Shown: one piece after another, positions 3,753-15,621 of the stretch
Numbering within the stretch: position 1 is the stretch's first letter
How the letters are laid out: the number at the start of each line of letters is the position of its first letter
Source: a virus
Length of the DNA: 50,130 bases
Direction: 5' to 3' (one strand)
IMG/VR virus record: IMGVR_UViG_3300045966_000151
Coordinates: 1 to 50,130 of that record
Program-made: the position numbers and the translations under genes
The notes under the pieces: generated by a model
Seen by the model: the letters and a program-made list of their open reading frames with translations, nothing else
The model's database searches: none
Told to the model about the DNA's origin: nothing

Positions 3753-4005
3753 CTTTGCTCTCCCACCCGCCGCGATCCATTTCGACGGCGATGCGCTCGG
3801 CCTGAGCCGCGAGTCCCACGAACGACAGCCGAATCGCGTTGACGCTCTCGGCGAAGCGACGAAGGAGAATCCCGCTGTAGTAGGGGCGCCACCGTCTCGG
3901 CCCGTGGTCGGCCATCAACACGACAAACATCACGCGCGGGTTCGTGACGGAGTAGATCGTGTATCGAGCCCAGCGGGGGAGACTGAGAACCCAGTGGCCG
4001 TTCAC
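3745..4005 (-). CDS. Small protein of unknown function
   Basis: 86 residues from GTG at 4005. Aromatic and arginine-rich, with a short hydrophobic stretch (NPRVMFVVLMADHG). No helix-turn-helix, zinc or catalytic motif is visible. It sits 14 bases after the secreted protein gene and overlaps the next gene, so it is part of the same leftward transcript. A superinfection-exclusion or host-range role would fit the position but is not shown. Confidence 0.6.
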   Translation of the reverse strand: MNGHWVLSLPRWARYTIYSVTNPRVMFVVLMADHGPRRWRPYYSGILLRRFAESVNAIRLSFVGLAAQAERIAVEMDRGGWESKDA

Positions 4006-4522: not shown

Positions 4523-5158
4523 TCACGCCAGCAGCGCGCCGAACCACCACGGCGCGGCGTCTGGGATGAGCAGCACGGCGAGCGCATCCCGCCACTTCGT
4601 CCGCCTGGTCCCCGGCAGGAAGAGCTGCTCCGCCGGCTCCTCCTCGCCCCACGGAAACTCCGCCTGCCCTGGCCGGATCAGCTTCGTCTTCCTCCGCCGC
4701 CACCGAACACGACCGCCCTCGAGCACCTCGACGACGGGGTACTCCACCAGGAACTCCATCTCGATCTGCTGGGCATCGAGCCCGGCCCGGACGAGCCGCG
4801 GGTAGGGCGGGCCCTGCGGATGAGGCGCGAGCGCGAGGTAGCCGATCATCGACGCCTCGAGCTCGATCGCGCCGAGCCACCCGGGCGAGCCGAGGTAGAA
4901 GTCCAGGTGGCCCGGATGGCCGAACCAGTGCGCGAGCGCGTGGAAGGCGGAGAACGTCCGGTACTTCTCGCTCAGGCCGGCGTTGAGGGTGATCTTCGCG
5001 GGCGGCTTCCGGACGAGCTGCTCGTCGGCCTCCTGGTGCTTCAGTTCAACCGCGAGCCGTTCGGCGGCGGCAGCAGAGAGGAAGTCCTCGAACGTCATCA
5101 CGCGGCGCGCGAAGTCGCGGACGCGCGTTTGCACGAGCTGGATCAGTTGGTCGCTCAC
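4523..5158 (-). CDS. ImmA/IrrE-like (COG2856) protein with altered active site
   Basis: 211 residues from GTG at 5158. Residues 66-113 match the layout of M78-type metallopeptidases: a helix with FHALAHWFGH (H73, H77), then GWLGAIELEASMIGYL with E99/E101 as a third zinc ligand and a following ALAP segment. In the family the motif is HExxH and the Glu is catalytic; here it is Ala74, so proteolysis is doubtful while zinc binding may remain. Its neighbour is an XRE repressor, as in ImmR/ImmA pairs where the peptidase cuts the repressor during induction. It has its own promoter at 5236-5209. Confidence 0.75.
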   Translation of the reverse strand: MSDQLIQLVQTRVRDFARRVMTFEDFLSAAAAERLAVELKHQEADEQLVRKPPAKITLNAGLSEKYRTFSAFHALAHWFGHPGHLDFYLGSPGWLGAIELEASMIGYLALAPHPQGPPYPRLVRAGLDAQQIEMEFLVEYPVVEVLEGGRVRWRRRKTKLIRPGQAEFPWGEEEPAEQLFLPGTRRTKWRDALAVLLIPDAAPWWFGALLA

Positions 5159-5208: not shown

Positions 5209-5236
5209 TCTATAGCGGGTGACGGCGCCGTGTCAA
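5209..5236 (-). promoter_or_regulatory. Sigma-70-type promoter for the ImmA-like operon
   Basis: On the minus strand TTGACA (5236-5231) is followed after 16 bases by TATAGA (5214-5209). The predicted transcript would begin near 5202, about 44 bases before the GTG at 5158. The -35 box contains the stop codon of the repressor gene. An exact -35 hexamer and an A/T-rich -10 are rare in this G+C-rich genome. Confidence 0.6.
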
Positions 5237-5724
5237 TGGGGACGCTTGCCCTTCGGGTCGCGCGCCTCGGCGATGAGCATGGCCTTGTACTCCGCGAGCC
5301 CGCGCTTCAGCTTCTGGGCGTAAGCCTCAAGCTCTCGCTCGGTTTCAGCGAGGCGCTCGCGGTAGCGCTCGCGCGCCCCCTGGCCTCCGGGCAGGTGGGT
5401 GAACGGGTCCAGCTCTAAGTCGGCGTGCATGAAGCCGAGGAGGTCGGCGACGTAGGGGAGGGAGTCGGTGCGATCTAACGCCTGGTCGCGAGTGTCCGAT
5501 GGCGCGCTATCGATTCCAAGCAGCTGCTCAACCGTCAATCCGAAGACTTCGGCCAAGCCGGCGAGGAGAGGTCCGCGAGGGTAGGACCGGCTGCGCTCCC
5601 ACTGGCTGACGGCGTTGAGAGAAACACCCAGCTTGGTTGCGACGACGCCTTGGTTCCATCCGCGACGTTCGCGAAGGCCCTTGATCTTCGGGCCGAATTC
5701 CGCGGTCAATTTAACGATTGACAT
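5233..5724 (-). CDS. XRE-family repressor (CI/ImmR-like)
   Basis: 163 residues from ATG at 5724. Residues 12-66 form an XRE helix-turn-helix (LRERRGWNQGVVATKLGVSL, then NAVSQWERSRSYPRGP); the remainder has an acidic segment and a long C-terminal helix (residues 112-150) suited to dimerisation. No RecA-type self-cleavage domain is seen, consistent with an ImmA-type rather than a LexA-type induction mechanism. Divergent from the Cro-like gene at 5755 and preceded by an inverted repeat at 5728-5775, its probable operator. Likely the lysogeny repressor. Confidence 0.85.
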   Translation of the reverse strand: MSIVKLTAEFGPKIKGLRERRGWNQGVVATKLGVSLNAVSQWERSRSYPRGPLLAGLAEVFGLTVEQLLGIDSAPSDTRDQALDRTDSLPYVADLLGFMHADLELDPFTHLPGGQGARERYRERLAETERELEAYAQKLKRGLAEYKAMLIAEARDPKGKRPH

Positions 5725-5746
5725 ATGTTCAAGTAACGTGTAGTCT
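5718..5746 (+). promoter_or_regulatory. Rightward early promoter candidate
   Basis: TTGACA at 5718-5723, 17-base spacer, TAGTCT at 5741-5746. The predicted start of transcription (about 5753) lies within 2 bases of the ATG at 5755, so the Cro-like message would be leaderless, and no Shine-Dalgarno sequence is present. The -10 is weak (3 of 6). The -35 overlaps the first codons of the repressor gene on the other strand. Confidence 0.5.
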
Positions 5747-5775
5747 CCTCGTCCATGGAAACACGTTTAGTTGAA
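5728..5775. promoter_or_regulatory. Inverted-repeat operator candidate in the lysis-lysogeny switch
   Basis: Left arm TTCAA-GT-AACGTGT (5728-5741) and right arm ACACGTT-TAG-TTGAA (5761-5775) are reverse complements at 12 positions, separated by 19 bases and centred near 5751. The left arm covers the spacer and -10 of the rightward promoter, the right arm covers the start and -10 of the leftward promoter. Two repressor dimers or a Cro/repressor pair could bind here. Confidence 0.55.
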
Positions 5776-5979
5776 TACGCCGCGACCACGTCAGGTGTCA
5801 AACGTGGCCTGAGGGCAGCAGGACTCTCGCAGCGCCGGGCCGCGCTCGCCACCAGCCAGAGCCCGGCCCTCGTCAGCATGGTCCTGGCGAAGAAGGCCAA
5901 GTCTCAGCCGTGCCTCGACAAGCTCGCCGCCCTCATCGCCAGGACGATGGCGGCGCGCGAGCAGCACAGCGCGGCCTAG
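5755..5979 (+). CDS. Cro-like small helix-turn-helix protein
   Basis: 74 residues from ATG 5755, divergent from the XRE repressor. Residues 15-62 (GVKRGLRAAGLSQRRAALAT, then SPALVSMVLAKKAKSQPCLD) follow the XRE five-helix pattern, with the recognition helix around SPALVSMVLAKK. Size, position and orientation are those of a Cro or antirepressor-type regulator. The start lies inside the operator repeat and appears leaderless. Confidence 0.75.
   Translation: METRLVEYAATTSGVKRGLRAAGLSQRRAALATSQSPALVSMVLAKKAKSQPCLDKLAALIARTMAAREQHSAA
5772..5801 (-). promoter_or_regulatory. Leftward repressor promoter candidate
   Basis: On the minus strand TTGACA (5801-5796), 18-base spacer, TATTCA (5777-5772). 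The transcript would start near 5765 and reach the repressor ATG (5724) after about 40 bases. It faces the rightward promoter, so the two transcripts would collide or overlap, as in P2/186-type switches. Confidence 0.5.
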
Positions 5980-5981
5980 CC

Positions 5982-6926
5982 ATGCGCCTCTCCACCGACG
6001 TCGAGCGCGTGGTCATCAGCAAGGTCCAGGTGGGGGTCCGCCGACGTCAGAAGCTCGGCAACCTCCGGTCCCTCGCGAAGTCGATCGAGACGCACGGCCT
6101 GCTGCACCCGATCCTGCTGCGCAACGGCGACACCCTCGTGGCGGGCCAGCGTCGCCTGGAGGCCTGCAAGCTCCTCGGCTGGACCTCGATCCCGGCGCGC
6201 CGGGTCGACGGCATGACGGACGAGGAGCTGCGCGCCGTCGAGCTGGAGGAGAACACCGAGCGCCTGGAGCTGCTCCCCTACGAAGCGTCGCGGCAGCGGT
6301 TCGCGGAGATCCGTCAGATCGAAGCCGATCTGAAGCGGCCAGCGACAGAGAAACCCGGGGCAGATTTGCCTCGGGTTTCCGGTGGGCGCGGACACACCGA
6401 GAAGGCGCCGGGCTCTCGGCGCGACGTGGCATCGGTCACCGGCATCTCGCCGAAGGACCAGCGCCGCATCGAGCAGCACGTCGCCGTGGCCGAGCAGTAC
6501 CCCTTCATGCAGAAGGGCGACTGGCGTCAGTACCGGGTGCTGGAGGCCGGCGAGAAGCTCGAGAAGCTCCCGGAGCGCGAGCGCCCCAAGGCCGCGGCGA
6601 TCATCGACCAGCCGGGCGTCGACCCGAGGAAGGCCGTGGAGATTCTCGGCACTCTGGCAGCGCAACCCGCGCCGGCCCGCCAAGAGATCTACCGCCTCGC
6701 CGAGTCGGCGGATGCGCATGACCGCAAGGTCGCCCTGACGCGGGCCGCCGCCGCGCCGCCACCTGTCGATCCCGGGCTCGTGCTCCTGCTCGATGCCGAG
6801 GAGACGCTGGCGAAGGCCGCGAAGGCCTGCCGGGTCGCGGCGTTCAAGCCGAAGCTGACCGCGCTCGCGCAGGGCGCGGCGAAGCTGGCCCAGTCCTTCA
6901 AGCGGCACCTTAAGGAGACGCGATGA
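5982..6926 (+). CDS. ParB/Srx-like nuclease-fold protein
   Basis: 314 residues from ATG 5982. Residues 10-85 are a ParB N-terminal domain: a conserved opening (VERVVISKVQVGVRRRQKLG), then LRSLAKSIETHGLLHPILLR and the motif AGQRRLEACKLLGW (GxRR-type nucleotide-binding segment), followed by an acidic helix ELEENTERLELLPYE. The middle holds a helix-turn-helix-like part (VASVTGISPKDQRRIEQHVA). Phage proteins of this class act as CTP/DNA-binding regulators or partition factors; with no ParA nearby, a regulatory or early replication role is likelier than plasmid partition. Confidence 0.85.
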   Translation: MRLSTDVERVVISKVQVGVRRRQKLGNLRSLAKSIETHGLLHPILLRNGDTLVAGQRRLEACKLLGWTSIPARRVDGMTDEELRAVELEENTERLELLPYEASRQRFAEIRQIEADLKRPATEKPGADLPRVSGGRGHTEKAPGSRRDVASVTGISPKDQRRIEQHVAVAEQYPFMQKGDWRQYRVLEAGEKLEKLPERERPKAAAIIDQPGVDPRKAVEILGTLAAQPAPARQEIYRLAESADAHDRKVALTRAAAAPPPVDPGLVLLLDAEETLAKAAKACRVAAFKPKLTALAQGAAKLAQSFKRHLKETR

Positions 6927-13981: not shown

Positions 13982-14575
13982 ATGGCGCGAATCAGCTATC
14001 CCCCGATCGAGCCGGAGGCGCCCGCCATGGGTGAGAGCCGCGACGTCGCTCGCATGTCTGAAATCGTCGGCGCTCAGCCGAGCTTCATGTGGTCGTCGAT
14101 CGACTTCTCGGCGCTCAGGAGCCCGATCGTCTACGCCTGGCTTCGTGATGGACGCGCGCGATACATCGGCATGTCCCTGCGTGGCGCGCAGCGCCCACTG
14201 GATCACGGACACGATCACATCCTGACGGACTCGGTCCGCGATGGCGACTCGTTCTGCCTCTGGTCACCAACCTCGGAAGGTGCCGCCGTCGAGGCTGAGG
14301 AGCGTGCGATCAGCGAGCTGAAACCCCTCATGAATCGCCGCCGGATCTTCATCCCGATCATTCGGGAGCCTCGGCCTGATCGCCGCCCGAGTCGAGACGC
14401 GTGGCGCCCACTCCTGCTCGCCGCGTCGAACGTCGAGCGGGCCGCCCAGGCGGTGCGGATGAGCCTCTCGATTCCCAGCCTCTTGCGGTTCAACCCGCGC
14501 CCGACGGAGCTGCTCACGGAGCTCAAGCGTCACATCGCCGACCTCGAGTCGGAGATGCGGGTCAACATCGGATGA
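13982..14575 (+). CDS. GIY-YIG-like nuclease
   Basis: 197 residues from ATG 13982. Residues 48-110 show IVYAWLRDGRARYIGMSLRG, an aromatic-Tyr/Tyr-Ile-Gly pair with following Arg, then HGHDHI, and AAVEAEERAISELKPLMNRR with the expected Glu and Asn. This is the GIY-YIG core in a variant form (VYAW-YIG). The C-terminal 80 residues are basic and helical. It may be a homing nuclease or a small resolvase-like enzyme; it directly precedes the integrase. Confidence 0.78.
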   Translation: MARISYPPIEPEAPAMGESRDVARMSEIVGAQPSFMWSSIDFSALRSPIVYAWLRDGRARYIGMSLRGAQRPLDHGHDHILTDSVRDGDSFCLWSPTSEGAAVEAEERAISELKPLMNRRRIFIPIIREPRPDRRPSRDAWRPLLLAASNVERAAQAVRMSLSIPSLLRFNPRPTELLTELKRHIADLESEMRVNIG

Positions 14576-14649
14576 GATCGGCTACGATGCTCGCCACCCA
14601 GCGACCGGCCCCCGTGCCGGCGCAACCTCTCGTTCGGGGGTGGCGGCAC

Positions 14650-15621
14650 ATGAAGCTCTCCACTGCGCGCGAGCAGTTCCTGGTGGACGCCCAGCTCCGC
14701 GGCATCGCGAAGCAGACGATCGCCAACTACAAGTCGGATCTGAATCTCCTGATCGCCCTGGCAACCGTGCGCATGGGCGACAGCGTGATCGCCTTCACCC
14801 CCGACCTGGCCCGCGAGTTCATGGTGTCGCTCGCGCGCCGCGAGAAGCCGCTGAGCCTCTCGACGCTGCATCGTCGCCGGGCGAGCGTCTCGGAGTTCGC
14901 GAAGTGGGGGCTCCGCAAGCGGCTGTGGCCCGTCGATCCGATGCTCGACGTGCCGCCCATCAAGCGGCCGAAACATCTCCCGCGGCCGTTCGCGCCGGAG
15001 CAGCGCGACGCCCTCCTGGCCCTCGACCTCCAGGGCGTCGACAAGGTCATCCGCGCGCTGCTGTACTACACCGGCCTCCGCGCCACGCCGATCTGCAATG
15101 TCCGCGTTGGTGACTGCTCCTTCGCGCCGGTCACGCTCACGACTGGCGACGTCGTCCCCGGAACGATCCGGGCGACGGGGAAGGGCAACAAGACCTCGGT
15201 CAAGCCCATGCTGCCCGAGCTCTACGAGGTCCTCTTCGACTGGTGCCTCAAGCACACGGACATGAAGCCGGCCTCGTTCGTCCTGGCGAAGAAGAACGGC
15301 CGGCCGTACTCACGGAAGATGCTCGAGGACCGGACCCGGGCCTGGGGCGTCCAGGCCAGCGTTCCGGAGTGCCTGCCGCACCGATTCCGCCACACGTTCG
15401 CGACAGCGTTGCTGGAGCGAGGCGTCGACATCCGCATCATCCAAGTGCTCATGGACCACGCCGACATCGGCACGACAGCCCTCTACACCAAGGTGGTCGA
15501 CGATCGGGCGTTCGGGGCAGCCCTGCGCCTGTCGTCGAAGGGCACAGAACCGCTCGGGGTTACATTCCGGGGTTCTGTACCTGGTAATTCTGACGAGACG
15601 GAGCGTTCAGCAAGTGCCTGA
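14650..15621 (+). CDS. int: Tyrosine-type site-specific integrase
   Basis: 323 residues from ATG 14650; ATG 14572, which overlaps the previous stop, would add 26 residues lacking domain character. N-terminal SAM-like domain (about 5-90: FLVDAQLRGIAKQTIANYKS) and catalytic domain 112-300 with all residues present: R144 in YYTGLRATPI, K in TGKGNK (178-181), H244 and R247 in PHRFRHTFAT, H270 and the nucleophile Y279 in LYTKV. It inserts and probably excises the prophage. No excisionase was recognised. The structured non-coding segment after the gene is a candidate attP. Confidence 0.93.
   Translation: MKLSTAREQFLVDAQLRGIAKQTIANYKSDLNLLIALATVRMGDSVIAFTPDLAREFMVSLARREKPLSLSTLHRRRASVSEFAKWGLRKRLWPVDPMLDVPPIKRPKHLPRPFAPEQRDALLALDLQGVDKVIRALLYYTGLRATPICNVRVGDCSFAPVTLTTGDVVPGTIRATGKGNKTSVKPMLPELYEVLFDWCLKHTDMKPASFVLAKKNGRPYSRKMLEDRTRAWGVQASVPECLPHRFRHTFATALLERGVDIRIIQVLMDHADIGTTALYTKVVDDRAFGAALRLSSKGTEPLGVTFRGSVPGNSDETERSASA

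Follow-up and report, generated by a model that had tools for sequence, protein, structure and literature searches.

Just 30 bp separate the start codons of the repressor candidate and the cro-like gene in the phage analysed here, raising the question of how the promoters and operators of a lysogeny switch are arranged at such a junction. The window, i.e., the whole stretch of DNA analysed, is the 50,130-base IMG/VR record IMGVR_UViG_3300045966_000151 (~69% GC). It is a temperate phage genome, and the switch is its immunity/early control region.

Gene layout and relatives

The genes that define the region, and the integrase, are as follows.

5233-5724, minus strand: repressor candidate P0001, HTH_3/HTH_31, 163 aa, without a peptidase domain
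5755-5979, plus strand: cro-like gene P0002, 74 aa, four-helix HTH protein
5982-6926, plus strand: ParB-N domain protein, the next gene in the presumed lytic operon
4523-5158, minus strand: P0004, weakly metalloprotease-like, downstream of the repressor
14401-15621: tyrosine integrase

Other genes in the window encode a DnaB-like helicase, a GpA-type terminase, a lambda-family portal, and a fused head protease/capsid protein.

The ribosome-binding site is a poor fit for the repressor and cro alike. The repressor ATG (5724-5748, minus strand) has none at the normal distance, with AGGAG lying ~20 nt upstream. The minus-strand ATG within CCATGG (5756) opens a frame of 16 codons (5706-5756) that runs across the repressor start in a different reading frame; were the leftward RNA to begin near 5765, this upstream frame would have almost no leader. 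In the related phage L025 (see below), the minus-strand ATG equivalent to window position 5756 is in frame with the repressor.

A scan with the Cro-like protein returned two relatives, L020 and L021, and an alignment search added a third, L025. Their Cro proteins are 60-68% identical to that of the window over 63 residues, and conservation was assessed across these four uncultured phages, including the window. L023 is the same contig as L020, and L024 the same contig as L021; a near-identical contig (L002/L003, 99.97%) is the same virus as the window and was left out of the evidence. Used as queries, the repressor, ParB, and P0004 recovered the same virus again or nothing, and neither the repressor nor the Cro alignment had a match in genome contigs. 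P0004 had no relative in the phage or plasmid collections, and P0002 none in the phage collection.

The repressor of L021 is 42% identical to that of the window over the HTH part. The repressor-side genes of L020 and L025 encode other small HTH-like proteins that resemble one another only marginally and whose weak Pfam matches differ in kind, and tblastn detected no match between the L020 repressor and P0001. Judged by these comparisons, three distantly related viruses keep the layout, two of them with what appears to be a replaced repressor gene. The TerL relatives G003 and G004 (50-52%) lack this switch.

Facing promoter candidates

The first-pass annotation had pointed to two exact TTGACA boxes facing each other on opposite strands, and both are indeed present, at 5718-5723 (plus) and 5801-5796 (minus). 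TTGACA occurs only five times in the 50 kb, both strands counted, and a facing pair within 100 bp would be expected by chance ~0.01 times (3 x 2 x 100/50130). The promoter elements considered are the following.

5718-5723, plus strand: -35 box TTGACA of the putative rightward (lytic) promoter PR; TTGACA/TTGACT in 4/4 phages
5741-5746, plus strand: -10 box TAGTCT of PR; TANNNT in 4/4 phages
5796-5801, minus strand: -35 box TTGACA of the putative leftward promoter, within cro codons 14-16
5772-5777, minus strand: candidate -10 box TATTCA of the leftward (repressor) promoter; letters identical in 4/4 phages

Spacing in the window is 17 nt for the rightward promoter and 18 nt for the leftward one, each -10 box matching TATAAT at 3/6 positions; the TATTCA letters are also fixed by Glu-Tyr codons and by an operator. 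Simple sigma-70 scoring of all positions on both strands (~500,000 combinations) ranked the rightward promoter second and the leftward one sixth, on weights that may not be those of the host's sigma factors. Neither was listed by a stricter consensus scan, because each -10 box is only a half match.

PR is the better conserved of the two. A promoter of its type, TTGAC[A/T] followed after 17 or 18 nt by TANNNT, is the top rightward candidate in 4/4 phages, and its -10 box ends 8, 10, 11, and 8 nt before the cro ATG (8 nt in the window). Since transcription from PR would start a few bases from the ATG, the cro mRNA is predicted to be leaderless or nearly so. The leaderless cro message suggested earlier is thus supported in its near-leaderless form, PR and its distance to the ATG having been kept in three independent relatives.

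The leftward -35 box reads TTGACT in L020 and L025 and TTGATT in L021. In the window, L020, and L025, the leftward candidate with the highest score is built on this box, so that in 3/4 phages the top leftward candidate points towards PR, not away from it. The best spacing differs, being 16 nt to GATATT in L020 and L025 versus 18 nt to TATTCA in the window, and in L021 the box (TTGATT) reaches a score of 4.4, a poor value that other candidates exceed. Of the face-to-face promoters previously proposed at a lysogeny switch, therefore, the switch itself stands and a convergent pair is probable, the leftward TTGAC[A/T] being kept in two relatives, but both -10 boxes are weak and the leftward box of L021 lends little to the case. 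On balance we favour a leftward promoter at this place. The ~12 bp between the predicted starts holds only if TAGTCT and TATTCA are the right -10 boxes.

Three palindromic operators at the repressor/cro junction

Three related operators were found at the junction, with the palindromic consensus TTCAAYTGAA. The window copies are degenerate, matching at 7-9 of 10 positions; those of the relatives are exact or near-exact.

5705-5714, no strand: O3, GTCAATTTAA (8/10), in repressor codons 4-7, 3 bp left of the PR -35 box
5728-5737, no strand: O2, TTCAAGTAAC (7/10), between the PR -35 and -10 boxes; left arm of the inverted repeat
5766-5775, no strand: O1, TTTAGTTGAA (= TTCAACTAAA on the minus strand, 9/10), in cro codons 4-7, over the leftward -10 box; right arm of the inverted repeat

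Mismatches to the consensus in the window thus number two in O3, three in O2, and one in O1. The O1 counterparts are exact TTCAAYTGAA in L020, L021, and L025. For O3 they are TTCAATTTAA in L021 and TTCAACTGAA in L020 and L025, and for O2, at the same place, TTCAATTGAA in L021, TTCAACTGAA in L025, and the 11-mer TTCAAATTGAA in L020; O2 falls within the PR spacer in 4/4 phages. L025 accordingly carries TTCAACTGAA three times (5944, 5976, and 6009), L021 carries TTCAATTTAA at 3934 and TTCAATTGAA at 3956 and 3997, and L020 carries TTCAACTGAA at 3930, the 11-mer TTCAAATTGAA at ~3961-3971, and TTCAATTGAA at 3997. In 12 kb each of L025 and L024, no site other than the three at the switch comes within one mismatch of the consensus (6 strand-hits versus 0.20 and 0.15 expected). 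We regard PR together with these operators as very probably real.

Operator-like sequences were also seen elsewhere. Two further TTCAANTGAA sites lie outside the switch in L023, the contig of L020 (1684-1693 and 2675-2684), as possible additional operators, and in the window a site with one mismatch, TTGAACTGAA on the minus strand, is located at 5040-5049 within the P0004 gene. Matches to the operator pattern in L027/L030, L028, and L029 were rejected, as no window-type Cro is encoded in their frames; they belong to other systems or arose by chance. L027 (1726-1774) and L030 (2900-2948) contain an unrelated switch of a lower-GC phage that faces a CI-like gene. There TTTCAAATGAAA is repeated, within the PR spacer and again 30 bp further on, an operator-in-spacer design with other proteins.

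DNA-level constraint inside cro

Because the stretch that would hold the leftward promoter is coding, third codon positions were checked. Codons 4-7 of cro, which contain O1, are A/T-ending in 4/4 phages, unlike the rest of the gene, and the codons used are nearly absent from the window genome (TTA 0.00, TCA 0.05, and GTT 0.03; GC3 0.89). This points to selection on the DNA rather than on the protein. AT-rich gene starts are common, so it is the exact palindrome, not AT-richness, that bears this argument. Beyond codon 8, an A/T ending shared by 4/4 phages is seen at codon 14 alone of 54 codons, with 0.04 such columns expected from a background of 0.17; the leftward -35 box ends, with its sixth base, on the third base of this codon.

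These data bear on an alternative that accepts PR and the operators but has the repressor transcribed from a different promoter, weak or in need of activation, which might lie within the O2/O3 stretch or, if PRE-like, far to the right. In that case the leftward TTGACA would be a by-product of conserved Val-Lys codons, and the switch would not be convergent here. The lack of a good leftward box at this place in L021, the weak -10 in all four phages, and the overlap of the box with conserved coding would all fit. Against it, the conserved A/T ending of codon 14 stands out from the background, and the leftward -35 box gives the strongest leftward candidate in 3/4 phages, so that we consider another repressor promoter rather unlikely.

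The regulator proteins

P0002, for which an AlphaFold model was built with its relatives (pLDDT 83), models as a Cro/C1-type HTH bundle. The model resembles HigA, the SinR N-domain, C-proteins, and 434 Cro (weak E-values, TM ~0.7), and P0002 had no Cox/Apl family match. P0001 has an HTH domain only and lacks a LexA-type/peptidase S24 domain, which is compatible with the earlier suggestion that the repressor is not RecA-cleaved.

The accompanying suggestion, that the repressor is instead of the ImmA type, was not supported. ImmA/IrrE proteins have an HExxH motif, which in P0004 is replaced by HALAH, thus without the catalytic Glu. P0004 gave a faint match to the PHROG 87 metalloprotease (2e-4), nothing in Pfam or NCBIfam, and nothing significant in PDB; no convincing counterpart was found near the switch of the relatives, and its single-sequence model (pLDDT 38) was too poor for use. 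Between the repressor and P0004 lies TTGACA-18-TAGATT (5236-5207, minus strand, 10/12), the only strict sigma-70 match in the 3-9 kb interval. It is upstream of P0004, which may therefore have its own promoter.

The divergence of the repressor-side proteins invites the reading that the operators serve Cro only, for autorepression and repression of the repressor gene, while the divergent HTH protein has its binding sites elsewhere or has a role other than that of immunity repressor. Such an arrangement would suit the contrast between a conserved Cro and divergent HTH genes of at least two unlike kinds. It is quite improbable given that in each phage the divergent gene at this place codes for a small HTH-like protein and that the surroundings of the switch showed no further repressor candidate.

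The inverted repeat

An inverted repeat had been proposed to overlap the cores of both promoters.

5728-5741, no strand: left arm, TTCAAGTAACGTGT; inner ACGTGT not conserved
5761-5775, no strand: right arm, ACACGTTTAGTTGAA; inner ACACGT not conserved

The repeat is present as described, with arms of 14-15 nt, one mismatch, and one indel. Its score of 9.5 (shuffles, 6.65 +/- 1.06) was reached or beaten in 5/200 shuffles and in 23/200 pieces drawn at random from the window, and taken alone the repeat proves little. The outer TTCAA/TTGAA of its arms are, of the two halves of O2 and of O1 in the window, those that match the operator better; the inner ACGTGT/ACACGT are absent from the relatives. 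What was read as one two-armed site is thus better described as half-sites of two operators; the span first marked (5718-5801) contains both -35 boxes, and the third operator, at 5705-5714, falls just outside it. One long operator or an RNA/DNA hairpin, as the long and nearly matched arms might suggest, was rejected as highly improbable: the repeat is near chance, its inner arms are missing from the relatives, and the leftward leader RNA shows no folding advantage over shuffled sequences (z 0.07).

Proposed mechanism

As read in the sequences, the gene layout, the operators, and PR are conserved in four divergent phages, and constraint is apparent inside cro. We think it probable that the switch consists of a convergent PR/leftward promoter pair, three shared operators, and a near-leaderless cro. 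PR (TTGACA-17-TAGTCT) would produce a near-leaderless mRNA for the Cro-like protein, the ParB-like protein, and further genes, while the leftward promoter, with its -35 and -10 boxes inside the first 16 cro codons, would produce the repressor mRNA and be aimed straight at PR. With starts ~12 bp apart, RNA polymerase could not occupy both promoters together, and the two polymerases would therefore exclude each other.

O2, in the PR spacer, would block PR directly; O1, over the leftward -10 box, would block the leftward promoter and, lying 12-22 bp inside the PR transcript, could also road-block early PR transcription. O3 lies beside and upstream of the PR -35 box and within the gene for the repressor. 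In the likeliest scheme, O2 (with O3) is the preferred target of the repressor, which thereby keeps PR silent in the lysogen, and O1 is that of Cro, which silences the repressor. The activity of the leftward promoter, the start points, the operator preference of each protein, and the mutual occlusion are what we infer from this arrangement.

A broader and more tentative reading is that of a fixed cassette that combines cro with three operators and a pair of overlapping promoters placed face to face, and into which repressors of unlike HTH families have been swapped. One promoter and one operator would then be written in cro codons, and all repressors would have to read the same operators. That a single operator is read by all four repressors is an assumption, since these are not all of one family.

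Relation to known switches

The region had been likened to P2 and 186 more than to lambda. This applies to the promoter orientation, whereas the operator anatomy is lambda-like, with three sites, since the inverted repeat resolves into half-sites of two of the three palindromic operators. In P2 and 186, rightward lytic and leftward lysogenic promoters converge, an arrangement that the sequences support here in the window, L020, and L025 and weakly in L021. In 186, pR interferes with pL (PMC7708051), and the title of Dodd et al. (1990), as listed in PMC3004801, refers to the face-to-face promoters of that phage. The differences are that the lytic regulator is Cox/Apl in P2/186 and a Cro/C1-type HTH protein here, that the predicted starts are only ~12 bp apart, and that the operators are three lambda-like palindromes.

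With lambda OR (OR1-OR3, CI/Cro) the region shares three related palindromic operators at a repressor/Cro-like junction and two HTH proteins. Lambda PR and PRM, however, are back to back, whereas the promoters here are apparently convergent with one operator inside cro, and the window repressor lacks a LexA-type self-cleaving domain. The telomere phage PY54 offers a parallel in its immB region, for which parts of PMC4488713 describe leaderless cI and cro mRNAs with a compact region between them; it differs in the single operator, OR3, bound by Cro, and facing promoters are not described in those parts of the source. ImmR/ImmA (ICEBs1, TnSmu1) and IrrE/DdrO are similar in that an HTH repressor is followed by a gene with faint metalloprotease resemblance, and differ in that here HALAH stands for HExxH, with no family match and no equivalent seen in the relatives.

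Each of these designs is already known; what is new is the combination of lambda-like operators with an apparently P2/186-like convergent pair. If true, lambda's three operators and the colliding promoters of P2/186 would be united in one 100-bp element, and the operator-cro cassette would outlive its repressor. A change of immunity specificity would then be testable where repressors were exchanged and operators kept, and the operator consensus may provide a handle for finding more members in uncultured high-GC phages.
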